DNA of 64,000 nucleotides from Methanoplanus limicola DSM 2279 (GTDB lineage: Archaea; Halobacteriota; Methanomicrobia; Methanomicrobiales; Methanomicrobiaceae): the NCBI RefSeq assembly GCF_000243255.1, contig NZ_CM001436.1:2650635-2714634 (forward strand), given 5' to 3'. Both the position numbers and the translations under genes were made by a program. The notes under the pieces were generated by a model. The model saw only the letters and a list, made by a program, of their open reading frames with translations. It did not search any database and was not told where the DNA came from. Positions 27,077-40,856 of this stretch are shown here, in pieces; positions within the stretch are counted from its first letter, which is position 1, and every line of letters begins with the position of its first letter.

Positions 27077-28069
27077 ATGAACACCAAAAAAATAATAATT
27101 TATCCTGAAACATTAACCACAATATCAGGGAGTATCCACAGATTGAAACCAAAATATCAGATATTTATCATCACGCTAATTCTCACCGGAATTCTCATCG
27201 CCGCAGGATGCACAGATGACCAGTATAAAACAACGCCCGGATATGACAATTCCGGCACAGAAGATGACGGGACCATAATTATCTTTGTAACCATACCACC
27301 ACAGAAAGAGATGGCAGAGGCAGTCGGCGGAGATTATATAACAGTAAAAACACTTGTACCGCCCGGCGCAGATCCGCACTCATACGAACCCTCACCGGGA
27401 ACGCTTGAAGACATCTCAAAAGCAGACGCCTACGCAATAGTCGGGTCAGGCCTTGAAACCGAAGAGAACTGGCTTGACAGGATAACCGGACTTAACCCGG
27501 ACCTGAAAATAATCAACTGCTCATCAGGCGTGAAATTCATAGCATCAGAAGCAGAAGAAGATGATTCAGGAGAGACCAATACAAACGGCCATGCAGACCC
27601 GCATATCTGGCTGTCAGTCTCAAACGGAAAAATTATGACGGAAAACATGAAAAGAGGCTTCACTGAGATAAAACCGGAACTCAGAGCAGAATTTGAATCC
27701 GGAGCAGAGAACTATATCAGTCTTCTTGACACCCTGAACTCAGAAATATCAGATAAACTGAAAGAGAGAAGAGGCGAATACATCCTCGTCTATCACCCGG
27801 CATGGAGGTATTTCGCAGAAGAATACGGCCTTAAAACCATATCAATAGAAAAAGACGGAAAAGAACCGACACCGGCCGGAATAAAATCAGTTATAGACCA
27901 GGCAGAGAAATACAGCATAAAAACAGTTCTGATCTCCCCACAGTTCAGCATAAAAAGTGCCGAAGTCATCGCAGAAGAGACAGGCAGCAGAGTTATGACA
28001 GCAGACCCCTTAAAAGAAGAATATATCGAAAACATGAGAACCACAGCCGAAGTATTTTCAGAGGCATAA
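27077..28069 (+). CDS. znuA: Metal ABC transporter substrate-binding lipoprotein (ZnuA type)
   Basis: This 330-residue protein has a membrane signal ending LIAAGC (lipobox) and then the cluster A-I metal-binding fold. Recognisable are VTIPPQKEMAEAVGGDYITVKTLVPPGADPHSYEPSPGTLEDISKADAYAIVG with the first His ligand, HADPHIWLS with the second, and YHPAWRYFAEEYGL with the third. A His-poor loop replaces the His-rich loop of classic ZnuA. Zinc or manganese is the likely cargo. A GGGG-containing ribosome-binding site lies just before the ATG. It is followed at once by ATPase and permease genes. Confidence 0.9.
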   Translation: MNTKKIIIYPETLTTISGSIHRLKPKYQIFIITLILTGILIAAGCTDDQYKTTPGYDNSGTEDDGTIIIFVTIPPQKEMAEAVGGDYITVKTLVPPGADPHSYEPSPGTLEDISKADAYAIVGSGLETEENWLDRITGLNPDLKIINCSSGVKFIASEAEEDDSGETNTNGHADPHIWLSVSNGKIMTENMKRGFTEIKPELRAEFESGAENYISLLDTLNSEISDKLKERRGEYILVYHPAWRYFAEEYGLKTISIEKDGKEPTPAGIKSVIDQAEKYSIKTVLISPQFSIKSAEVIAEETGSRVMTADPLKEEYIENMRTTAEVFSEA

Positions 28070-28074
28070 AAATT

Positions 28075-28905
28075 ATGAAAGAACCGGCAATTGAGATAAA
28101 TAACCTCACCGTCATGGGCGGAGGTCATCCCCTCCTTGACAATATTGACCTTACAATAAACAGGGGCGAATTCCACGCAATAATCGGGCCAAACGGCGGC
28201 GGCAAAACAACTCTGTTAAAAGTCATACTCGGACTTATAAAGCCGGACTCCGGTTCAGTGAAGATATTCGGCAAAAAGCCGGAGGAGAACCGGAGTCTCA
28301 TAGGCTATGTCCCGCAGTTTAGGACATTTGAATTCGGATATCCCATATCAGTCATGGACATGGTGCTCTCCGGAAGAATGGGCCATATAAAAGGGATAAG
28401 AAAGACATATTCCGAAGATGACATCCGGATTGCAGAAGAATCCATAGAAATACTCGGCATAGAGGGACTTGCCGGAAGAAATCTCACAGACCTCTCCGGC
28501 GGTGAACAGCAGAGGGCAATAATCGCAAGGGCGCTTGCCGGAAAACCTGAAATGCTTCTTCTGGATGAACCCACAGTCTATGTCGATACCCCGACAAACA
28601 GAATGTTCTTTAAAATGCTTGAAGAACTCCATGACAGGATGACCATTCTCCTCGTAACCCACGACATCGGGGTAATATCGTCTGATATAGATTATGTGGC
28701 ATGCCTCAACAGAAAAATTTACACACATCACACAAACCAGATCACCCAGGACATGCTGGACTCTGCATATAAATGTCCGGTTGACATCATAGCACACGGA
28801 ATACCGCACCGGGTATTTCAGGAGCATGATGAAAGGGACAACTGCGGCGGTCTCAGACCTGAAAAAGAGAGACTCTCAGAAAGGAGAGAGCAACAGAAGA
28901 GGTGA
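28075..28905 (+). CDS. znuC: Metal ABC transporter ATP-binding protein (ZnuC type)
   Basis: This 276-residue ATPase has Walker A GPNGGGKTT, the Q-loop in VPQFRTF, the signature LSGGEQQR, Walker B MLLLDEPTV and the H-loop VTHDIG. The C-terminal extension after about residue 215 (YKCPVDIIAHGIPHRVFQEHDERDNC) contains several His/Cys residues and resembles tails of metal-type ABC ATPases. It begins five bases after znuA and its stop overlaps the region just before the permease start. Confidence 0.93.
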   Translation: MKEPAIEINNLTVMGGGHPLLDNIDLTINRGEFHAIIGPNGGGKTTLLKVILGLIKPDSGSVKIFGKKPEENRSLIGYVPQFRTFEFGYPISVMDMVLSGRMGHIKGIRKTYSEDDIRIAEESIEILGIEGLAGRNLTDLSGGEQQRAIIARALAGKPEMLLLDEPTVYVDTPTNRMFFKMLEELHDRMTILLVTHDIGVISSDIDYVACLNRKIYTHHTNQITQDMLDSAYKCPVDIIAHGIPHRVFQEHDERDNCGGLRPEKERLSERREQQKR

Positions 28906-28910
28906 TATGC

Positions 28911-29732
28911 ATGCTTGAAATATTTGCATACGAATTTCTGAGAAATGCCCTCATAGCCGGAGTCCTGGCAAGCATCATATGCGGGATCACAGGGACATTT
29001 GTGATTGTAAAAAAGATGGTCTCACTCTCAGGCGGCATATCACACGCTGCATTCGGCGGGATAGGCATAGGCTACTTCTTCGGTTTTGAACCTATCGCAG
29101 GTGCAGCACTGTTCAGTCTCGCAACCGCCGGCGGAATAAACTACATAAGGAAAAAGGCCGGCGAAAACCTGGACACACTCGTTGGTGCAGTATGGTCGGG
29201 AGGAATGGCACTTGGAATAATGCTCGTCTATATGTCCCCCGGATATGCACCCGGACTTATGACATACCTCTTTGGAAACATACTTCTTGTCCCCGCGTCC
29301 GATATAATCCTGATTGGAATACTGGCACTTGCGGTTATAATTATCGTAGCCGTCTTCTTCAGCCAGATGGTGGCAGTAACCTTTGACGAAGAGTACGCGA
29401 CCGTAATGAACCTCAGCACCGACCGGTTTATGCTCCTTCTCCTCTGTATGATTGCACTCACCGTAGTGGTTCTCATACAGATTGTCGGCATAATACTCGT
29501 AATCGCACTCCTCACACTTCCGGCGGCGATAGCCCACAGATACTCATCCGGGATAAAAAATATGATGATAATATCCGCTGTACTTGGAGCAGTATTCACA
29601 ACAACCGGAATAATGATCTCATATTACCTGGATGTCCCGTCAGGGGCTGCAATAATTCTCCTGAGTGCAGCGGCATACCTGGCCGTAATCGGAAAAAACA
29701 GCCTTAAAAAAAGAATAAAAAGTCCTGCCTGA
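28911..29732 (+). CDS. znuB: Metal ABC transporter permease (ZnuB type)
   Basis: This 273-residue membrane protein of the ABC-3 family has seven to eight transmembrane segments. It carries the signature SLSGGISHAAFGGIGIGYFFG and, later, VVLIQIVGIILVIALLTLPAAIA, which forms the metal path. I choose the ATG at 28911 because GGTGA lies five bases before it. A GTG at 28902 is in frame but overlaps that site. It completes the three-gene uptake operon. No metal-dependent repressor gene is adjacent. Confidence 0.9.
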   Translation: MLEIFAYEFLRNALIAGVLASIICGITGTFVIVKKMVSLSGGISHAAFGGIGIGYFFGFEPIAGAALFSLATAGGINYIRKKAGENLDTLVGAVWSGGMALGIMLVYMSPGYAPGLMTYLFGNILLVPASDIILIGILALAVIIIVAVFFSQMVAVTFDEEYATVMNLSTDRFMLLLLCMIALTVVVLIQIVGIILVIALLTLPAAIAHRYSSGIKNMMIISAVLGAVFTTTGIMISYYLDVPSGAAIILLSAAAYLAVIGKNSLKKRIKSPA

Positions 29733-29801: not shown

Positions 29802-30995
29802 TCAATGCTCATAAGTCTCCTTTAACTCACGGGAGACGATGTCACCCCATTTAATCCTCTCCCATTCACCATTTCTTACAGTGAGAACATCGTATGCAGG
29901 ATATATGTCCCCGTTCTCATCAAAATGACGCGGGCCGCAGAGTCCGAGATACCTGATCTCCTTCATTGAATCCTTAATCTCATCAGCATCATAACCGCCA
30001 TCCGCAATCGCCTCGGAGAGAATCTTTGTAGTGTCATAACCGTAAGGAACCGGCCAGTTTATGACATCAGACCCGTACATCTCATAATATTTCTTTTCAA
30101 ATCTGTCTGAATGGATCTGACTGGACTGCATCGTTGCAGTAAGACCCTCAGAATAAGGCCCAATCTCCTCAATAAGCCCGTCATCGATAAGCCCTTCAGA
30201 GCCAAACCAGACTGCATCAATCCCGGCATCCTCCGCAGCCTCAAGAATCGAAACCGCCTGCTCATAATAGCCGATAAGAATTATACCGTCCGGATCTGCG
30301 GCCTTAATCTTCTCAGCAAGATCGCTGTAAATGGCAGCCTTTGGATCAAAGCTCTCAACCATTATAAAATGGCCGCCGTACTTAGGATAAGTCTCAAAGA
30401 CAGACTCTTTAAGCCCCCTCCCATAGTCATCATCAGAATAAATGAGAGCAACCCGTTTTAATTCCGGATGGAGCACTGAGAGCAGTCTTCCAATACCACG
30501 CCCCTGGTATTTGTCTGATGAAATTGTCCGGAAGACATAATTTTTATAATCTGAAAGGGACGGATTTGTGGCCGAAGGTGAGATCAGAACAATACCCCTC
30601 TCTTCAGCAATCGGTGCGATTGCCATCGTTGCAGTACTTGAAACGGCACCGATAACCGCAGGAATTCCATTATCTGCATAGTAATTAATCGCCCACTTGC
30701 TCATATAGGGATTGCCGATATTGTCAAAATAGTCAACCACCAGCTCTTTTCCAAAGATGCCGCCGCCCTCATTGATCTCCAGAACAGCAATATCAATGCC
30801 CCGCTTAAAATCCTCACCATAATTAGAGAGAGAACCTGAAAGCGGTAGAATTGCCCCGACAACAATCTCATCAGGATAATCAGAAGACTCAATTACCAGT
30901 ATATCATAAGCAGAGAAGAATAATACAAGCCCCACAATTATTATACCGGCAATATTTACAGGCGTCAGAATATCACGTATATTTCCGGGCCTCAT
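29802..30995 (-). CDS. Membrane-anchored LivJ-type periplasmic binding protein
   Basis: This 397-residue protein has one N-terminal membrane segment (NIAGIIIVGLVLFFSAYDILVI) without a lipobox. A type I periplasmic binding fold of the branched-chain amino acid class follows: VVGAILPLSGSLSNYGEDFKRGIDIAVLEIN, PAVIGAVSSTATMAIAPIAEERGIVLISPSATNP, ALIYSDDDYGRGL. It overlaps the end of the Nramp-5TMR gene by four bases (ATGA), so the two are co-translated. No LivHMGF permease is present. The receptor therefore appears to work with the fused transporter/receptor protein rather than with an ABC importer. Confidence 0.85.
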   Translation of the reverse strand: MRPGNIRDILTPVNIAGIIIVGLVLFFSAYDILVIESSDYPDEIVVGAILPLSGSLSNYGEDFKRGIDIAVLEINEGGGIFGKELVVDYFDNIGNPYMSKWAINYYADNGIPAVIGAVSSTATMAIAPIAEERGIVLISPSATNPSLSDYKNYVFRTISSDKYQGRGIGRLLSVLHPELKRVALIYSDDDYGRGLKESVFETYPKYGGHFIMVESFDPKAAIYSDLAEKIKAADPDGIILIGYYEQAVSILEAAEDAGIDAVWFGSEGLIDDGLIEEIGPYSEGLTATMQSSQIHSDRFEKKYYEMYGSDVINWPVPYGYDTTKILSEAIADGGYDADEIKDSMKEIRYLGLCGPRHFDENGDIYPAYDVLTVRNGEWERIKWGDIVSRELKETYEH

Positions 30996-33052
30996 TTATC
31001 CGCCTCCGTAAAACTGTCATCTCCCGCCGGAGTCACTCCTTCCTTATCACCGGAATTCCACGAATCAGACTCATTACCCTTGTCTGCACCGGTTTTAAAG
31101 AAATTCAGCTTACACATAAGATATGATCTCTTCTCTTCGGAAGAAATTCCGCCCCCTGCCGGGTCATCACGTATTCTGCCGGAATATTTCTCGTAAAACC
31201 TCTCATACAGGAGTTCACGGCCCTGATCACTGAGGATATATACAAAGATAAGAAGCCCGACAGTATTTGCAACAACCATTGACGGGAATGCACTGACAAC
31301 CACACCAACGTACTGCTCAAATGTTATCCCTTCAGTTAAAAGCGGCAAAAGCACAAGAATATGTACACTCTCAATAATAATTCCAAGAATTATTGCATGA
31401 TAATATGTGAGCCTGCCCCTTGTCCATCTCATATATAATCCGGCTATAATTCCGGCGGCGACAGTCCCGGCAAAGCAGGCAGTGGCAGTCCATCCTCCGG
31501 ACGAGTACCTGTAAAGTCCGCCGATCACTCCTGCAAGCCCGCCCACAAGCGGACCGCCCAAAAGTCCGGCGACTGCAGGACCCGTATCCCTGAAATTGAT
31601 TATAAGGCCATCAAACGGAATACCTCGATATGTACCGTAGATGGATATTGCGCCAAAAATTGCTACGGCCCAGATGCGGTCAAGATAATCCGCCCTCCCG
31701 TCAAGGAACTTCTGAAACATCCCGGTCTTTGAAAAGGCATAGATAACAAAGCCGATAACAAGGAGCCTCTCAATTAGCGGCAGACCGAATGTCAGAATAC
31801 TCGACTCAAGAATCATTGCGACATACAAAAATACAATACTGCCTGCACCTGTGATAAGAATCCATAACCTGCTCCCGCGGGCATATTCAGGCAGTTTAAG
31901 ATCGAGATATATTATCATAAAGCCAAGTATGCCAAACATCACCGAGGCAAATGCAGCAGTATGATGCACAAGTGCCACCGGATCAAAGAGAAACATTGCA
32001 GTCAGAATAACTATGGTAAAGAGAAGAAGGCAGACCCTGTAGATAACCTTCTCACTGCTCTTTACTGCGGTTGAACTTTTAATAATATGAGATATAGCCC
32101 TCGCACGCCCGTCCATACCTGAAAGGGTCGCACCAAACATGATCAGGTATCCGGAGAGCAGAAAGATCATAACACCATAAGGGATGTATGCAAGGACATA
32201 GAGCACCTGGGAGACCATACTGTCAATTGTTATCGCCTCGCCGTGGCCGAGATATGAGACTGCAAAGCCACTGACGCCAAGAGTCATATACAGAAATGTA
32301 ATAATTCCCACAATTGAGAATGCAATGCAGAGATCGAGATTGACGCTCTTTAAAAACCTCCTATAATTTATCTCCTCAGAAGTGCTTTCCATCTTCTCAT
32401 GAAGCCATGTTGAATATAATAGAAGATTCAGTCCTGACCCGACAGCACCCATCATAGCCATAATAGCGATGACTGAGCCTTCCGGAATATCGGGCTTAAA
32501 CCCTTCAATTATCGCACCATAGGGAAGTGAAAATTCAAAGAGGCAGTATATTATCGCAATAAAAAGACCAAGAACAAGAAAGATTACGAGCTTTTCAACC
32601 CGCTCATATGAGTCCTTCCAGAGCAGGAAGAGAATAACAACAATGGAAGAGACACCGATAAACCACGAGGGCCATATTCCGGGGATGAAATAATCCAGAA
32701 ATATTCCGGCATAGATGAGCATTCCTCCAAATGCGAACATCTCAAGGAAATAAATTATCATTACCAGGTACGAACCCCAGTTTGAAGGGCCTGGGAGCCG
32801 CCTGAACCCGTCAAATATCGTCTCTCCGGTTGCAAAGGTATAACGTGCAATTCCGTTTGCGAACGCAAACTTAAAGATAATTGTCAGGACGACGACCCAT
32901 ATCAGTTCAAAACCGAAATGTGCACCAATCTCAACCGCTTCTGCGATCCCGCTCTCACCTGCGGCGGCGATGGCTAAAAGCAGGCCGGGACCTAAGAATA
33001 TAAAATAGTCACGGTACTTCTCAGGAAGTTTCTCAATTAAACGTGCAAACAT
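30992..33052 (-). CDS. Nramp-like transporter fused to LytS-type 5TM receptor domain
   Basis: The 686-residue protein has two membrane modules. Residues about 10-410 form an Nramp-like transporter. The first helix reads GPGLLLAIAAAGESGIAEAVEIGAHFGFELIWV, so the canonical DPGN metal motif is replaced by GESG. Residues about 455-625 match the 5TM receptor domain of LytS/YhcK sensors (GIPFDGLIINFRDTG, GGPLVGGLAGVIGGLYRY, GGWTATACFAGTVAAGIIAG). A charged cytoplasmic tail of 55 residues ends it. The next gene encodes an extracytoplasmic binding protein and overlaps by four bases. The pair looks like a ligand-responsive transporter. The substrate is unknown. Confidence 0.8.
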   Translation of the reverse strand: MFARLIEKLPEKYRDYFIFLGPGLLLAIAAAGESGIAEAVEIGAHFGFELIWVVVLTIIFKFAFANGIARYTFATGETIFDGFRRLPGPSNWGSYLVMIIYFLEMFAFGGMLIYAGIFLDYFIPGIWPSWFIGVSSIVVILFLLWKDSYERVEKLVIFLVLGLFIAIIYCLFEFSLPYGAIIEGFKPDIPEGSVIAIMAMMGAVGSGLNLLLYSTWLHEKMESTSEEINYRRFLKSVNLDLCIAFSIVGIITFLYMTLGVSGFAVSYLGHGEAITIDSMVSQVLYVLAYIPYGVMIFLLSGYLIMFGATLSGMDGRARAISHIIKSSTAVKSSEKVIYRVCLLLFTIVILTAMFLFDPVALVHHTAAFASVMFGILGFMIIYLDLKLPEYARGSRLWILITGAGSIVFLYVAMILESSILTFGLPLIERLLVIGFVIYAFSKTGMFQKFLDGRADYLDRIWAVAIFGAISIYGTYRGIPFDGLIINFRDTGPAVAGLLGGPLVGGLAGVIGGLYRYSSGGWTATACFAGTVAAGIIAGLYMRWTRGRLTYYHAIILGIIIESVHILVLLPLLTEGITFEQYVGVVVSAFPSMVVANTVGLLIFVYILSDQGRELLYERFYEKYSGRIRDDPAGGGISSEEKRSYLMCKLNFFKTGADKGNESDSWNSGDKEGVTPAGDDSFTEADK

Positions 33053-34404: not shown

Positions 34405-36342
34405 TTGCCGGGAAAGGAAAAGATCATCAGAGAGATTGGAGAAGAGAGTATTCTTCTGCCGCTGTATATCAACTCTGCAATTGAGGCAAACGAGAGGATA
34501 AAATATTATTTTTCACTCCTTCAGGCTGCAAAATCCTATGCTGACAATCCAGCCACCCTGCCGCAGATTCCGGAAGAAGATTTTCAGAAAAGATCTGATA
34601 AAAATGATAAACCGGAAAATGTCATTTTTGAATCATCACTGAAAGAGGAGGATATATATTTCATCCCCGGTTCATCAGAAATAGTCTCGGATATTGGTAA
34701 GTGCATCGATGAAATGATTAAACCGCTCTCAATCTCCGGATATCCGCCCGCAGAGGAGTTTAAAGAAAGATATGAGACAATCTCAGGCAGAATTCCGGAA
34801 ATATCCGACAGTATAATAACGGGAAATACCATCTCACAACTGATATCAGGGATACGTAAAAAAGGTGACTCCATGCACATCCTCGTAATGGACATTCACA
34901 AAGCCCTGAATGATCTGCAGGCAGGTTTAAGCCATGAGGAGATTGACAGAGCAAAGGTCTGTAAGATAAATGAATCAGATATTGTGCATCTGAAAGCATT
35001 TATGGAAGGCTTAAATTCCACCAGAATATTAAAGTTCGGACATCCGGGACTTGACACCACCGCAACCTCCACCAGTGAAGGACTGATAATTCAAAACGAC
35101 ATAGGCGTAACAGATGCACATGTAATTGTCATAAAAGTAAAAGATGGCAGAATTACATTCAATTATACCGACATCCACCGCCAAAGACTTGATTTTTTCA
35201 GATCGCTCTTCAGAAACCATGCCATATTATGGAACGATACCAGATCAAAAAATGTAACAGATTTTGAAAAGGATATATTTTTCCTGGCGAAAGGAACCTT
35301 CTATGCAGATAATAAAACCGGGACTGATGAATTCCTGAAATTCCTCGGATCAAGAATTGTATTCCTGATAGACTGGAACAAAGCAAGGAAAAACCTCAGA
35401 AAATTTTTAAGGAGCAGCGACTGCATAAAAGTCCTCATATGGGCCGCAGACAACAATTACGGGCACCGGGGTTTTCTCGTACTTGGCGGGTCCACCCTCA
35501 TTTACGAAGCACTTGAAATTGCCGCAGATGTGCCGATAAGATATGGTGAACCCCTGCACATCTATCTCGGACGGGAGAGGGCGTCTGAATTCTTCAGATG
35601 CCTGCTTATGACCGCCTCAACAGGCCTTATCGAAAAAAAACCTGAATTATTCATAAAAGACGAGATCAAAGCATTGCTGCTCCGGCAGATAAAATCGGCA
35701 CGGCAAAGCCTACTTGACATTATCGCCGAACATGCATCACTAATCACAGCAGAATCAGAACTGCTCCTGCAATCACTTGAATCAATACAGTCAGGAGGGG
35801 AAAAACTCTGTCTGAAGAATATAAACCGGGCAAAATTCCGGGAGAGAAGAGCAGACGATATTGTAAACCGCGTTCGGGCGGTTACAAAGAGAATGAAGGA
35901 CGGCGCATTTTACTCAGAACTGATAAGTCTCTCTGATGATGCCCTTGACTATATTGAAGACTCCATATCCGTCTGTGGATTTGACCCGCCGCTTATATCA
36001 GACAGTGACATTCTGTCAGATATGATCAGAATGGCCGATACTGTAAACGAAAGCTGTATGCAATATCAAAAGACCATACATATTTTCAGCATTATAAGTG
36101 GCAAAAACCCGGACGATGAGATGAATGCCTTTCTCCTCTCCGTTGATATGGTGGTTGAGACTGAGGAGATATGTGACAGGGCTTTCAGAGATGTGCAGAA
36201 GAGTATTATGCTTAATTCCAAAAATTTCAGGGAGGCAATGGTCTCATCCGAAATCACAAAGGGTATGGAAGAAGCAGTGAACTCACTGATGAAATCGGCA
36301 TTTCTGATTCGGGAAAATGTCCTTGAAAACCTGAACAGATAG
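34405..36342 (+). CDS. Large protein with C-terminal PhoU/DUF47-like domain
   Basis: This 645-residue cytoplasmic protein is mostly unfamiliar. Residues about 480-640 form long helices with RRADDIVNRVRAVTKRMKDGAFYSELISLSDDALDYIEDSISV, which resembles the DUF47/PhoU-like phosphate regulator family. The central part (about 190-420) holds KAFMEGLNSTRILKFGHPGLDTTATSTSEGL and WAADNNYGHRGFLVLGGSTLIYEAL, alpha/beta in character with no recognised motif. The start at 34405 is TTG (ttgccgggaaag) after a GGGAGG site. It ends one base before the PPDK-like gene, so the two proteins probably act together, perhaps in phosphate-linked control. Confidence 0.6.
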   Translation: MPGKEKIIREIGEESILLPLYINSAIEANERIKYYFSLLQAAKSYADNPATLPQIPEEDFQKRSDKNDKPENVIFESSLKEEDIYFIPGSSEIVSDIGKCIDEMIKPLSISGYPPAEEFKERYETISGRIPEISDSIITGNTISQLISGIRKKGDSMHILVMDIHKALNDLQAGLSHEEIDRAKVCKINESDIVHLKAFMEGLNSTRILKFGHPGLDTTATSTSEGLIIQNDIGVTDAHVIVIKVKDGRITFNYTDIHRQRLDFFRSLFRNHAILWNDTRSKNVTDFEKDIFFLAKGTFYADNKTGTDEFLKFLGSRIVFLIDWNKARKNLRKFLRSSDCIKVLIWAADNNYGHRGFLVLGGSTLIYEALEIAADVPIRYGEPLHIYLGRERASEFFRCLLMTASTGLIEKKPELFIKDEIKALLLRQIKSARQSLLDIIAEHASLITAESELLLQSLESIQSGGEKLCLKNINRAKFRERRADDIVNRVRAVTKRMKDGAFYSELISLSDDALDYIEDSISVCGFDPPLISDSDILSDMIRMADTVNESCMQYQKTIHIFSIISGKNPDDEMNAFLLSVDMVVETEEICDRAFRDVQKSIMLNSKNFREAMVSSEITKGMEEAVNSLMKSAFLIRENVLENLNR

Positions 36343-37959
36343 GTGCAGGTTATGAAACAAAATGACAGAGTGGTATATTTCGGAAAAGAAGACGACACTG
36401 AAGTTCCGGCAGAATTTTTCGGCAATAAGACAGCAAAACTAACCGGACTTTCAGGCACGGGACTTGCAGTACCTCCGGGTTTCACATTCGGAATTTCACT
36501 TTGCAGGGAATATTACGAAAATGACAGGCACCTCCCAGACTGGTATTACAGCCATGTAAGCCAGGGCATATCATATCTTGAGGATATGACCGGAAAAGAA
36601 ACGGGCAGCAGGAAAAATCCGCTAATATTATCGGTCAGATCAGGTGCGGCGGCATCCATGCCGGGAATAATGGAGACCGTACTCAATGCAGGTATCAACA
36701 GGGAGACAATTGAAGGGGTTATTTTTTCGTCCGGAAATCCACGGTTTGCATGGGATTTATACAGAAGGTTTCTGGAATCGTTTGGATGCACTGTGCTTGG
36801 CCATTCCGGAAGCGTATATAAGAAAATCATCAGCGAATATCTCTCTGAAGAGAAAATTACAGAGGAGAAATATCTCTGTTATGACACATTAAGAAGTATT
36901 TCAGAGGAGTTTGAGAAATTATATCCGGAAAATATTCTGAATGAGGTCATCTCAGATCCAAAAAAGACTATAGAATACTCAGTAAAAGCAGTCCTTGACT
37001 CATGGACTGACAAAAAGGCAGAAGACTTCAAGAGATTAAACCCGCAGATAAAATACAGCGGAACTGCCGTTACAATTCAGACAATGGTATTTGGCAATAT
37101 TAACAGAAGATCAGGTTCAGGAGTTGCCTTTACAAAAAATCCCTGGACAGGCGAGGACATCTCTGTTATCGATTTTCAGTATGGGTGCCAGGGCGGGGAG
37201 ATCGTATCAGGGTATTTCAACGGAATAAAAAAAGAGGAGATTGACCGTAAAATACCCGGTCTTTCAGAGAGAATAATCAGTGCCGGCAGAGTCCTTGAGA
37301 AGAGATACAGGGATATGCAGGATTTTGAATTTACCGTTGAAAACGAAAAACTCTACATACTTCAGACAAGAGACGGCAAAAGGGCAGATATCGCCGGGCT
37401 GAAGATCGCCTCCAGTCTTGTCTCAGAAGGCACTATAAGTGAGGATGAGGGCATAAAACTGACAGAGAATATCCGGACTGACAGAATATACACCGAAAAG
37501 ATAAACTCAGATGAAATTCCGGCAGGATACGGCAGTTCAGCATCACTTGGCGCAGTATCCGGAAGGATAGCATTTAGTGAAAAAAAGGCAGAAATTCTTG
37601 GAAAAAATGATACTGTTATACTCGTTAAGGAGTTCCTCTCTCCGGATGACATAAACGCAATATCGCTATGCAGCGGACTGCTTGCAAAGAGAGGCGCAGT
37701 AACATCCCATGCCGCCGTTGTTGCAAGGGAAATGGGAAAGGTGTGCATAGTAAACTGCAGGCAACTTGAGATAATCCCGCAGAGAAAAATATGCACTATA
37801 GGCAGATCGGAATTTAAGGAAGGAGATCATCTGACACTTGACGGTGCTACAGGCGGCATATATGCAGGAATTCAGGAAATAGTCAGAGAAAAACCGGAAG
37901 AACTGACAGAGATAATTAATAGCCGGAAGAAAAATTCCGGAAGAAAAAAAGGACCATAA
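36343..37959 (+). CDS. PPDK-like phosphotransferase lacking the PEP/pyruvate domain
   Basis: This 538-residue protein has the ATP-grasp part of pyruvate phosphate dikinase (GNKTAKLTGLSGTGLAVPPGFTF; LSVRSGAAASMPGIMETVLN; SGSGVAFTKNPWTG). It also has the phosphohistidine swivel domain with catalytic His456 in GAVTSHAAVVARE. The C-terminal TIM barrel that binds PEP/pyruvate (about 350 residues in PPDK) is absent, with a natural stop after a basic tail. It could transfer phosphate from ATP to His456 but needs another acceptor. The partner gene one base upstream, with a PhoU/DUF47-like domain, is the obvious candidate. The start may be GTG at 36343 or ATG at 36352. Confidence 0.8.
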   Translation: MQVMKQNDRVVYFGKEDDTEVPAEFFGNKTAKLTGLSGTGLAVPPGFTFGISLCREYYENDRHLPDWYYSHVSQGISYLEDMTGKETGSRKNPLILSVRSGAAASMPGIMETVLNAGINRETIEGVIFSSGNPRFAWDLYRRFLESFGCTVLGHSGSVYKKIISEYLSEEKITEEKYLCYDTLRSISEEFEKLYPENILNEVISDPKKTIEYSVKAVLDSWTDKKAEDFKRLNPQIKYSGTAVTIQTMVFGNINRRSGSGVAFTKNPWTGEDISVIDFQYGCQGGEIVSGYFNGIKKEEIDRKIPGLSERIISAGRVLEKRYRDMQDFEFTVENEKLYILQTRDGKRADIAGLKIASSLVSEGTISEDEGIKLTENIRTDRIYTEKINSDEIPAGYGSSASLGAVSGRIAFSEKKAEILGKNDTVILVKEFLSPDDINAISLCSGLLAKRGAVTSHAAVVAREMGKVCIVNCRQLEIIPQRKICTIGRSEFKEGDHLTLDGATGGIYAGIQEIVREKPEELTEIINSRKKNSGRKKGP

Positions 37960-37985: not shown

Positions 37986-39296
37986 CTATTCATGACCATA
38001 ATACCGGAATAAAAGCTCAGTTGCAGCCCTGACCTCCTCCCCGTCTTTTCTTACGCCTGCAAGATAGGCATTGAATACCTCATCTGTCACCACATGAAGT
38101 CCCGGCTTGAACATATCTGCATGCATCTGAAGATCAAACGACCTCGCTTCGGCTTCAGTAAGCTTCAGTGATTTATATTCGCCGTTATGAGGAGTATAAA
38201 CAGGATTTTCAGAGCGGGGCGTCTTCAGCACAAGATCGGCAAGCGGTGTCATAGGGATAGGTTCTGCAACCGAGACAAAGGCATCATCAAGGGAATGCCC
38301 GGTTATGAAATCTCTGGTAAGCTCAAAGTCCTCCTCAGTCTCCTTTGGATGGCCGACAATGAAACTCCCGGCGACCTTCAGCCCGTGATCCCGGCACGCA
38401 AAAACTGCATCAGATGCAGCCTGAACAGTCGCACCCTTGCCCATATCCCTTAATATTCTGTCAGACCCGGACTCAATACCAAAAAATACCCAGCCGATCG
38501 AATAATCCCGGATGGCATCAAGCACCCTCTCGCTTATGCAGTCCACTCTGATATCCGGCGATGATATATTATTTGGCCCCATAATAGCGGCCATCTCTTT
38601 TAAAAGCCCGACAAAGGCATCCTCATTGAACTTCCCGTCATCAGCCATGTACAGTGATCCCGTCCCACCGGAGACCGAGAGCCTCGTAGCACCCATCCTC
38701 TTAAATTCCCTAACCTCAGCCAGGATATCGTCAAGATTTCTGCTCCTGATATTCCGGCCAAAAAATCTTGGAACCTGGCAGAATGTGCAGGCGCCTGTGC
38801 ACCCCCTGTGCGTCTCAATATATGCAGATGCACCGCGGATGCTCTGGGCACTGATGTCATCCGGAATAAGAGGCAGGCCACGGTCCACAGATGCCTGCCC
38901 CCTCTTAGGACGGACTACAATCCCCGAATCATCCATAAAGGCAATTCCGGCTATATCCTTTGAAAATCCGGTGCTAAATAACTCAGGGACTGTCTCCTCA
39001 CCTTCACCAATGACGACAAAGTCAGGCTCAAGTTCACCTATAACCATCTCAGGATATGCCGAGACAGGCCCGCCGATTACAACCGTTCCGCCCTGTGACC
39101 TCTTATTACGGATAAACTCCCTAATCTCCGGTGAAAGAAGATGCTGGGTGGAATAAAGGCTGATTAGAACTATATCCTCAGTATCGCCGGCAAAGTTATT
39201 GGCTATCTTTACCTCATGACCACTGTCACGGAGAATGCCGCCTATGAGCATGGCTCCGTATGTGTATATTTCAGGTGAGATGACAGAGACTTTCAT
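37986..39296 (-). CDS. B12-binding radical SAM enzyme
   Basis: This 436-residue protein has an N-terminal Rossmann-like cobalamin-binding domain (MKVSVISPEIYTYGAMLIGGIL ... VIGGPVSAYPEMVIGELEPDFVVIGEGEETV). A radical SAM core follows with CTGACTFC coordinating the 4Fe-4S cluster (C-x3-C-x2-C after THRG), then GIESGSDRIL and GSFIVGHPKETEED. Such enzymes methylate unactivated carbons or perform ring chemistry. In methanogens related proteins modify methyl-coenzyme M reductase residues, so a role in McrA maturation is possible but not shown. It is convergent with the PPDK-like gene and appears to be transcribed alone. Confidence 0.8.
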   Translation of the reverse strand: MKVSVISPEIYTYGAMLIGGILRDSGHEVKIANNFAGDTEDIVLISLYSTQHLLSPEIREFIRNKRSQGGTVVIGGPVSAYPEMVIGELEPDFVVIGEGEETVPELFSTGFSKDIAGIAFMDDSGIVVRPKRGQASVDRGLPLIPDDISAQSIRGASAYIETHRGCTGACTFCQVPRFFGRNIRSRNLDDILAEVREFKRMGATRLSVSGGTGSLYMADDGKFNEDAFVGLLKEMAAIMGPNNISSPDIRVDCISERVLDAIRDYSIGWVFFGIESGSDRILRDMGKGATVQAASDAVFACRDHGLKVAGSFIVGHPKETEEDFELTRDFITGHSLDDAFVSVAEPIPMTPLADLVLKTPRSENPVYTPHNGEYKSLKLTEAEARSFDLQMHADMFKPGLHVVTDEVFNAYLAGVRKDGEEVRAATELLFRYYGHE

Positions 39297-39365
39297 TTCT
39301 AATTAGTCTTTGTCCGAACCGGAAAAAAAATGTCTGTTATGAACCGGAATATTATCCCGGTAATT

Positions 39366-40676
39366 TTACTCTCTCTTTACTTTTCCAATGCAGAATACAA
39401 ACCCTGCTGCAAGAACTGCTCCGATTACTGCAAACGGAGGAAGCCCGCTCTTTGTAGGCTGTGCGGCAGGCACAAGATTGCCCTGAACAGAGGATGTACC
39501 GCCTGCATTGACAGTTGCGGTAACTGTTGAATCAGAGTAGCCTGTGAGCCTGAAGGTAACACTGTACTGACCTGCTGCCATTGACTGCTGGAAAGGTGCA
39601 ATGCCCTTGTATTCATTATTGATAAAGACATTTGCACCTGTTGGGTTGGATGTGATATCAAGTGTCCCTGTTGCCGCCGGAGTGGGTGTGGTTGAATCCA
39701 TATTCACAGAAACAGTTGCCGTTCCGCCGCCCATAACTGATGTTGAGACGGATTTGTCTGAATAGCCTGAAAGTTTAAGAGTTACGGTATGTGTTCCGCT
39801 CGCGACATTGTCAACAACATAGCTGCCTGAGTACGGCGTGACGCCGATATATGACCCGTCAAGGTAGATATATGCCCCGCTCGGTGTTGAAGAGATATAC
39901 AGTGTGCCTGTTGAAGGGTTTGGAATTTGGGATAATGTCCTTGATACTGTGGTCACCTGTCCGGCATAGACATTGACCTGCCCTGACCATTCATAGTAAC
40001 CGGCTTTGTTAAGCTCAACTACATGTGCGCCCTTCACAACACCGGAGATCGTAACCGGAGATAGCCCCTGATAGCTGCCGTCAAGATAAACGGAAGCACG
40101 GGTTGGTGTTGAGGTGACTGCAATAGTTCCGTGGTCGTTAACCGGAACAAGGGTTGCCGTAACTGAAGACTGCTGCCCTGCCGAGACTGAAACTGTTGAA
40201 CCCCAGTCCTGGTAGCCGGACCTTGTAACCTTTACAGAGTGCGTACCTGCGGAGAGTCCGTCAACAGAATGTGGAGTAAGCCCGTAGTACGATCCGTCAA
40301 CATAGAGTGCAGAACCGGTTGGGGACGATGATACATAAACAGAACCTGTTGTCGGTCCCTGCGGATTTAATGTGAAATAATAATCAACAGTCTCTCCGGC
40401 AGACGGAGTATTCAGGTTTGTAACCTGGCTGTTCTGGTAGCCGGACTTGGCTGCGTATGCTGTCTTAGGCATGCTTGACGGACTGCCGTCCAGATATACC
40501 GTATAGGTGTACTGCTGGTTCACTGTCGTTCCGACTGCAAGGCCGTCAACGTAGATGGTTGCCCCGTCCACATTTGTATGGAAGGTGTACCAGCCTACCT
40601 GATTTCCTACAATTTCTGCTGAAGCAGAACCTGATAATGCCGCAAGACATAGCAGGGCAACAGCAAAACACTTCAT
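39366..40676 (-). CDS. Cell-surface protein with tandem PEGA domains
   Basis: After a signal peptide (MKCFAVALLCLAALSGSASA), the 436-residue protein consists of about five PEGA repeats. Each has a pattern such as GSVYVSSSPTGSALYVDGSYYGLTP or GTLDITSNPTGANVFINNEYKG, followed by GxHxVxxxxxGY. A C-terminal transmembrane segment with a short basic tail (FAVIGAVLAAGFVFCIGKVKRE) anchors it. Likely it is an exposed wall protein. I start at 40676, since AGGA precedes it. Upstream ATGs at 40691 and 40715 lack this. A paralogue begins at 63558. Confidence 0.88.
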   Translation of the reverse strand: MKCFAVALLCLAALSGSASAEIVGNQVGWYTFHTNVDGATIYVDGLAVGTTVNQQYTYTVYLDGSPSSMPKTAYAAKSGYQNSQVTNLNTPSAGETVDYYFTLNPQGPTTGSVYVSSSPTGSALYVDGSYYGLTPHSVDGLSAGTHSVKVTRSGYQDWGSTVSVSAGQQSSVTATLVPVNDHGTIAVTSTPTRASVYLDGSYQGLSPVTISGVVKGAHVVELNKAGYYEWSGQVNVYAGQVTTVSRTLSQIPNPSTGTLYISSTPSGAYIYLDGSYIGVTPYSGSYVVDNVASGTHTVTLKLSGYSDKSVSTSVMGGGTATVSVNMDSTTPTPAATGTLDITSNPTGANVFINNEYKGIAPFQQSMAAGQYSVTFRLTGYSDSTVTATVNAGGTSSVQGNLVPAAQPTKSGLPPFAVIGAVLAAGFVFCIGKVKRE

Positions 40677-40856
40677 TTTTCCTGAAACCATAATAATCAG
40701 AAGTAATTCAGCCATAATATATAAATACTTGCCGGAATTCTGAACGCAGACAAATAAAGAGCAAAAATATGATAAAAAACAACAATAAAGATAAAAATTA
40801 CAAATCTGCCCGCAGTCATCCGGATAAGAGGGACCACTACAGGAAATAAAGAAATA

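Follow-up and report, generated by a model that had tools for sequence, protein, structure and literature searches.

Can a binding protein of a class that normally serves ATP-binding cassette (ABC) importers work with a transporter of another kind? This question is raised by two overlapping genes in a 64,000-nucleotide stretch of the Methanoplanus limicola DSM 2279 genome (NZ_CM001436.1, positions 2,650,635 to 2,714,634; the whole stretch is referred to as the window). One gene encodes a fusion of an Nramp-related core and a 5TMR-LYT domain, the other a membrane-anchored LivJ-type substrate-binding protein (SBP). Together they constitute a conserved system of two proteins with no ABC partner of the SBP's class. 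We give a probability of roughly one half to the reading that it is an SBP-dependent, ABC-free Nramp-related carrier or transceptor, probably for an amino acid.

Conservation and Linkage of the Pair

A survey of the pair across Methanomicrobiales had been suggested in a preliminary description of this locus. By coordinates, the pair is found in 37 genomes of the order, including G107, where it lies across two contig ends, and G104, where the SBP reading frame is broken. Full-length fusions occur in several families, and fusions of this kind are present in the cultivated methanogens Methanogenium marinum and Methanocorpusculum parvum. An alignment-based scan of 84,980 species (one genome per species), limited by its peptide patterns, found fusions in Methanomicrobiales only; an earlier single-sequence contig scan for the fusion had given no matches. 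A search of the phylum, limited by sampling, added one full-length fusion from a genome of another family (f8; L139:5328-8708), which has a single Nramp-like domain, three 5TMR-like ones in tandem, and no adjoining SBP.

The SBP gene adjoins 31 of the 48 fusions that were taken with their flanks. Thirty of these cases come from locus scoring, while the SBP of G123, which lies directly downstream and is masked by a spurious antisense open reading frame, was counted by coordinates. The stop–start distance between the two genes is mostly −4 to +3 bp, with a 4-bp overlap in 12 of the 30 scored loci; the longer overlaps in some loci probably reflect mechanical start choice. In one genome of another family (G129) the gene order is swapped, with the SBP upstream across a 75-bp gap, and the pair is retained.

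A maximum-likelihood tree of the 48 fusions groups all 31 SBP-linked ones in a single clade (SH-aLRT 99), and SBP linkage changes state only once over the whole tree, by one gain and no loss. The linkage is unbroken in the 31 loci over three families, though the other neighbours vary. Second fusion copies in G105, G106, G107, G109, and G123 have no SBP alongside.

The SBP-less fusion in G019 (L142:5023-6941; G015 by coordinates) is divided over two adjacent frames and represents a split gene or a frameshift. In a sister genome (G120, contig 1, 170836-172971) a 763-aa frame contains two binding-protein domains that are 33–35% identical to the window SBP.

The Fusion Protein

Both modules of the fusion had been named in the preliminary description and were confirmed by profile searches, with matches above the Pfam gathering cut-offs to Nramp (PF01566, E 6.5e-20, residues 36–333) and to 5TM-5TMR_LYT (PF07694, E 5.2e-38, residues 445–609). 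The protein also passes the NCBIfam Nramp_1 cut-off. An AlphaFold2 model with 44 fusions as input (mean pLDDT 81) resembles solved Nramps in Foldseek, with target-normalised TM-scores of 0.86 for BfraNramp, ∼0.8 for DraNramp, and 0.82–0.83 for EleNRMT.

The DPGN motif of canonical Nramp (SLC11) proteins in transmembrane helix 1 (TM1) is not found in the fusions, and GE[S/A/T/H]G stands at its position in all 44 that were aligned. The invariance of G32, E33, and G35 across these homologues points to GESG as a conserved signature and not noise. VGSGLN aligns where canonical Nramps have their MPHN region, so the canonical MPH of TM6 is missing as well. With these two replacements, a PF01566 match, and an Nramp fold, the core is an "Nramp-related" protein.

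The preliminary description had taken the loss of DPGN as a sign of a cargo other than a classic divalent metal, and this argument is misleading. Nramp-related proteins are paraphyletic, branch before the canonical metal motif, and include cation carriers (Ray et al., 2026, PMC12873925). "Loss" is therefore probably a poor description, and DPGN is likely never to have been present in this core. EleNRMT is an Nramp-related Mg2+ transporter (PDB 7qia; PMC8806188, PMC12873925) and YcsG/MntG has been assigned Mn2+ import (PMC10448178); the TM1 motif alone therefore neither reveals the cargo nor excludes a metal. Growth of Corynebacterium on 5-oxoproline depends on PxpT, an Nramp-family protein and a homolog of YcsG (PMC13274462).

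The significant PF07694 match assigns the C-terminal domain to the 5TMR-LYT/S-component fold. The "5TMR" of the fusion has the S-component fold, made up of six core helices and an additional H0. Weak ECF-ribofla_trS matches are seen in two related fusions.

The Binding Protein and Its Orphan Status

The earlier claim that the overlapping gene encodes a membrane-anchored LivJ-type SBP was borne out. The protein matches Peripla_BP_6 (E 4.9e-45), its nearest solved relatives are Leu/Ile/Val-binding proteins, and its N-terminus has a hydrophobic segment without a lipobox Cys. The ATGA overlap of the two genes is likely to couple their translation.

The SBP residues Y59, S120, T143, Y191, E267, and Y318 align to W18, S79, T102, Y150, E226, and Y276 of the leucine-binding protein (LBP; 1usg), in which Glu226 is the ammonium partner. 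Among 29 aligned SBPs the site is strongly conserved, with an aromatic residue at position 59 in 28, Ser-120 in 28 (Thr in one), Thr-143 in 29, Tyr-191 in 28, Glu or Asp at 267 in 29, and Tyr-318 in 29. The contacts of LivJ to isoleucine include Ser79, Thr102, Tyr150, Tyr18, and Phe276 (PMC6983066). The window SBP thus has both the family and the amino-acid-site residues of LivJ-type (HAAT) binding proteins, and the conserved site makes an α-amino acid the most likely ligand. As position 243 and its neighbour (the region of LBP Y202) are variable, specificity may differ among the homologs.

The permease expected of a HAAT/Liv ABC importer is missing. No PF02653 (LivH/LivM-type) permease was found in this 99%-complete single-contig genome by a search that was positive in 12 of 14 control genomes. 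At E < 1e-10, PF02653 matches were obtained in none of the 37 pair genomes and in 89 of 194 others, a mutual exclusion that follows family lines. The window SBP is therefore an orphan of its ABC class. The statement that no ABC components are present was correct for this class, but a complete ABC system of another class, ZnuABC, lies close to the pair. A genome-wide search for DctP-type TRAP SBPs (PF03480), which did not extend to TAXI SBPs or TRAP membrane subunits, was also negative. We do not claim that the pair replaces Liv ABC function, given the family-linked pattern and the ABC-locus SBPs examined, which are 20–24% identical and lack T143.

The only other Peripla_BP_6 protein of the genome is a second orphan SBP of 742 aa (L093:313-2541) with a tandem Bmp (PnrA-like) domain.

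A Candidate Docking Face

The 31 SBP-linked fusions were compared with 13 SBP-less ones, a small and mixed set, for positions conserved in ≥90% of the former and ≤35% of the latter. In the Nramp domain, 18 of 20 such positions are on the predicted extracellular half, vs. 37 of the 93 remaining conserved positions (Fisher 3e-5), with sides assigned coarsely from the predicted model and an assumed Nramp topology and with positions that are not independent. The 18 positions are E41, A44, H45, T57, M111, D120, Y121, G125, F174, S193, T252, S266, H270, G271, Q282, L284, Y285, and F306, and they are densest in the TM7–TM8 loop (S266, H270, G271, Q282, L284, and Y285). No such bias was seen in the controls, where the extracellular share was 2 of 10 for the reciprocal set and 21 of 38 and 12 of 23 for family-level contrasts inside the SBP clade.

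The 5TMR domain has a single clade-specific position, on the cytoplasmic side, and none on the extracellular side. The predicted location of the face thus suggests that the SBP contacts the carrier domain rather than the 5TMR. The "5TMR" of the preliminary description, though borne out as a family match, is not supported as it stands, for the domain has an S-component fold and carries none of the clade-specific face.

Proposed Mechanism and Alternative Explanations

In the mechanism that we propose, the anchored SBP would capture a small extracellular ligand, with an α-amino acid as the most likely candidate. The loaded SBP would dock with the Nramp-related (LeuT-fold) domain at its extracellular face, and this domain would move the ligand across the membrane without ATP. 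The fused 5TMR would have no part in docking; it might sense the state of the carrier, or a signal from the membrane side or from outside the cell, and tune or report uptake, as a transceptor would. Physical docking, transport as opposed to pure sensing, and the cargo are what we infer from the linkage, the conservation, and the predicted face. The bolder proposal of an ABC-independent amino-acid importer-sensor, which would add amino acids to the substrates of the PF01566 superfamily, is made tentatively, and we would sooner bet against it than for it.

Several observations speak against an SBP-dependent carrier. The SBP-less fusions retain GE[S/A/T]G, and the core can therefore work without an SBP. 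Because TM1 comes out as an unbroken helix in the model of the window fusion, the model gives no view of the substrate site and was not used for substrate placement. The coarse assignment of sides counts on the same side of the balance. A histidine-kinase-like domain in one related branch points to sensing. Some Nramp-related proteins move Mg2+ (PMC8806188) or Mn2+ (PMC10448178), and the ZnuABC genes opposite the pair in eight loci provide a metal context.

The first alternative is a pure receptor, in which a non-transporting core and the 5TMR would form a sensor with the SBP as ligand-recognition subunit, similar to LuxP/LuxQ, and the signal would pass through the cytoplasmic tail or a partner. 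5TMR domains are otherwise sensory; PMC11109136 treats the 5TMR as a sensor and proposes its NxR motif (here R488) as a ligand contact. Relatives from one genus (g36; L068-L071, e.g., L069:7375-10878) are 1147–1167 aa long and contain an Nramp-like region and a pair of 5TMR domains, plus ∼300 further residues. This C-terminal part had no match in Pfam or PDB sequence searches, yet the top 50 PDB fold matches of its predicted structure (pLDDT 76) were histidine kinases or kinase-like signalling proteins. Judged from this predicted fold, at least one branch of the Nramp-5TMR architecture is probably linked to signalling. By inspection, however, the phosphoacceptor His and the N-box seem to be missing from the kinase-like domain, and the g36 branch differs in its TM1 motif and lacks an SBP.

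The only other 5TMR protein in the M. limicola genome (L094:715-2076) resembles a 5TMR-phosphatase, with a downstream domain that looks to be of the SpoIIE/RsbU type. The window fusion, on the other hand, has no output domain in Pfam and ends in a tail of ∼70 aa of low model confidence, and does not qualify as a 5TMR sensor kinase. Furthermore, neither R488 nor R515 is retained in five SBP-linked fusions, and sensing through these arginines is therefore not universal. As the SBP-specific face also sits on the carrier domain and not on the 5TMR, we consider a pure receptor unlikely, though it deserves to be kept in mind. Directly after the g36 Nramp-5TMR-5TMR gene there is a gene of the phosphofructokinase family.

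Rather improbable, in our view, is a carrier of divalent cations (e.g., Mg2+ or Mn2+) whose 5TMR would be regulatory and whose amino-acid SBP would gate uptake or deliver a metal–amino-acid chelate. This would fit with the Nramp-related relatives EleNRMT (Mg2+; PMC12873925) and MntG (Mn2+; PMC10448178), with the acidic residues E33, E104, and E153, which vary little or not at all, and with the lack of any other Nramp in this genome. The ZnuABC genes that face the pair would fit as well, but all eight loci belong to one family (f1), and this neighbourhood is absent from the f3 loci and from several f1 genera. The metal-site residues D, N, and M of canonical Nramps correspond to G, G, and S in the fusion, and the partner SBP is of the amino-acid class with an intact site and not of the ZnuA type.

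Synteny without function, with the SBP working alone or with another protein, would agree with the single gain from which all linked loci descend, but is very improbable given that no loss or separation is seen in 31 loci over three families while neighbours change, that the pair stayed intact through one order swap, that the extracellular face is specific to the SBP clade, and that the genome has no alternative permease of the SBP's class.

Comparison With Known Systems

The Nramp-5TMR fusion architecture has been reported earlier (Partipilo and Slotboom, 2024, PMC11109136). Those archaeal proteins share the domain order with a C-terminal 5TMR, but their core was called a divalent-metal transporter and no SBP partner was described; the terms "substrate-binding protein" and "periplasmic" are absent from the main text. 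The novelty claimed in the preliminary description thus has to be narrowed from the fusion to its partner, as no description of a LivJ-type SBP paired with an Nramp-related carrier was found in the open-licence literature searched. New here are the pair in 37 genomes, the single SBP-linked clade without loss, the order swap, the orphan SBP, and the clade-specific face.

By analogy, the closest working model for the pair is TAXI-GltS, in which an orphan membrane-tethered SBP without a cognate TRAP membrane part is translationally overlapped with a secondary carrier (PMC12344293). TAXI-GltS combines a TAXI SBP with the elevator-type GltS, whereas the window pair combines a LivJ-type SBP with a LeuT-fold Nramp-related carrier and a 5TMR. 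PxpT and YcsG (MntG) of the pxp operons have an Nramp-related core and a possible organic substrate, 5-oxoproline, but no SBP or 5TMR has been described for them and the substrate is disputed, as YcsG has also been assigned Mn2+ import (PMC13274462, PMC10448178). EleNRMT is similar in fold and in lacking the canonical metal motif, and differs as a Mg2+ carrier without fusion or SBP. LivJHMGF (HAAT) importers share the SBP class and the amino-acid-site residues, but this genome has no LivH/LivM-type permease and the other pair genomes give no strong match to one. LytS/BtsS-type sensor kinases have a 5TMR with the NxR motif, whereas the window fusion has its 5TMR at the C-terminus and no kinase or output domain.

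Secondary carriers known to use SBPs are restricted to TRAP, TTT, and, since 2025, TAXI-GltS, and this association has been linked to elevator-type carriers (PMC12344293). A LivJ-type SBP serving a LeuT-fold (rocking-bundle) carrier would, if true, mean that SBPs can serve carriers with another mechanism of transport. It would likewise offer a functional entry to the Nramp-related groups, which are largely uncharacterised, and to the role of 5TMR domains in fusions with transporters.

Features and Gene Neighbourhood

Table 1. Coordinates of the pair, its domains and motifs, and the facing ABC system (window positions).
Feature	Position	Strand	Remarks
Nramp-related/5TMR (S-component fold) fusion gene	30992..33052	(-)	686 aa, ~18 predicted transmembrane helices; Pfam, NCBIfam, AlphaFold2, Foldseek
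Nramp-related (LeuT-fold) core	31805..33010	(-)	residues ~15-416; PF01566, TM-scores to BfraNramp and EleNRMT
TM1 signature GESG, canonical DPGN position	32948..32959	(-)	residues 32-35
TM6 break GAVGSGLN, canonical MPHN region	32426..32449	(-)	residues 202-209; helix break in model at 204-206
Extracellular TM7-TM8 loop, part of candidate docking face	32198..32257	(-)	residues 266-285
5TMR-LYT/S-component-fold domain	31226..31720	(-)	residues 445-609; PF07694; NFR and YR motif arginines R488, R515
Membrane-anchored LivJ-type (type I, Peripla_BP_6) SBP gene	29802..30995	(-)	397 aa; Pfam, 1usg alignment, conservation
ATGA stop/start overlap of SBP and fusion genes	30992..30995	(-)	4 bp; GGAGG just upstream of ATG
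ZnuA, ZnuC, ZnuB	27077-29732		convergent to the pair, ~70 bp away; complete ABC system with own binding protein ZnuA

A 645-aa protein (window 34405-36342) matches no Pfam family and is found in 16 of 120 genomes of the order; it is followed by a protein similar to phosphoenolpyruvate (PEP) synthase/pyruvate phosphate dikinase. The two genes (34405-37959) were considered as third partners, as they also stand beside a fusion in G081, but were rejected because most pair genomes lack the 645-aa protein. Genes for radical-SAM/B12 and PEGA-repeat proteins (window 37986-40715) adjoin the fusion on its upstream side in related genera, whereas in the window a DUF3089 gene and two further genes separate them from it. 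These neighbours are conserved only within the family and were treated as synteny, not as partners.

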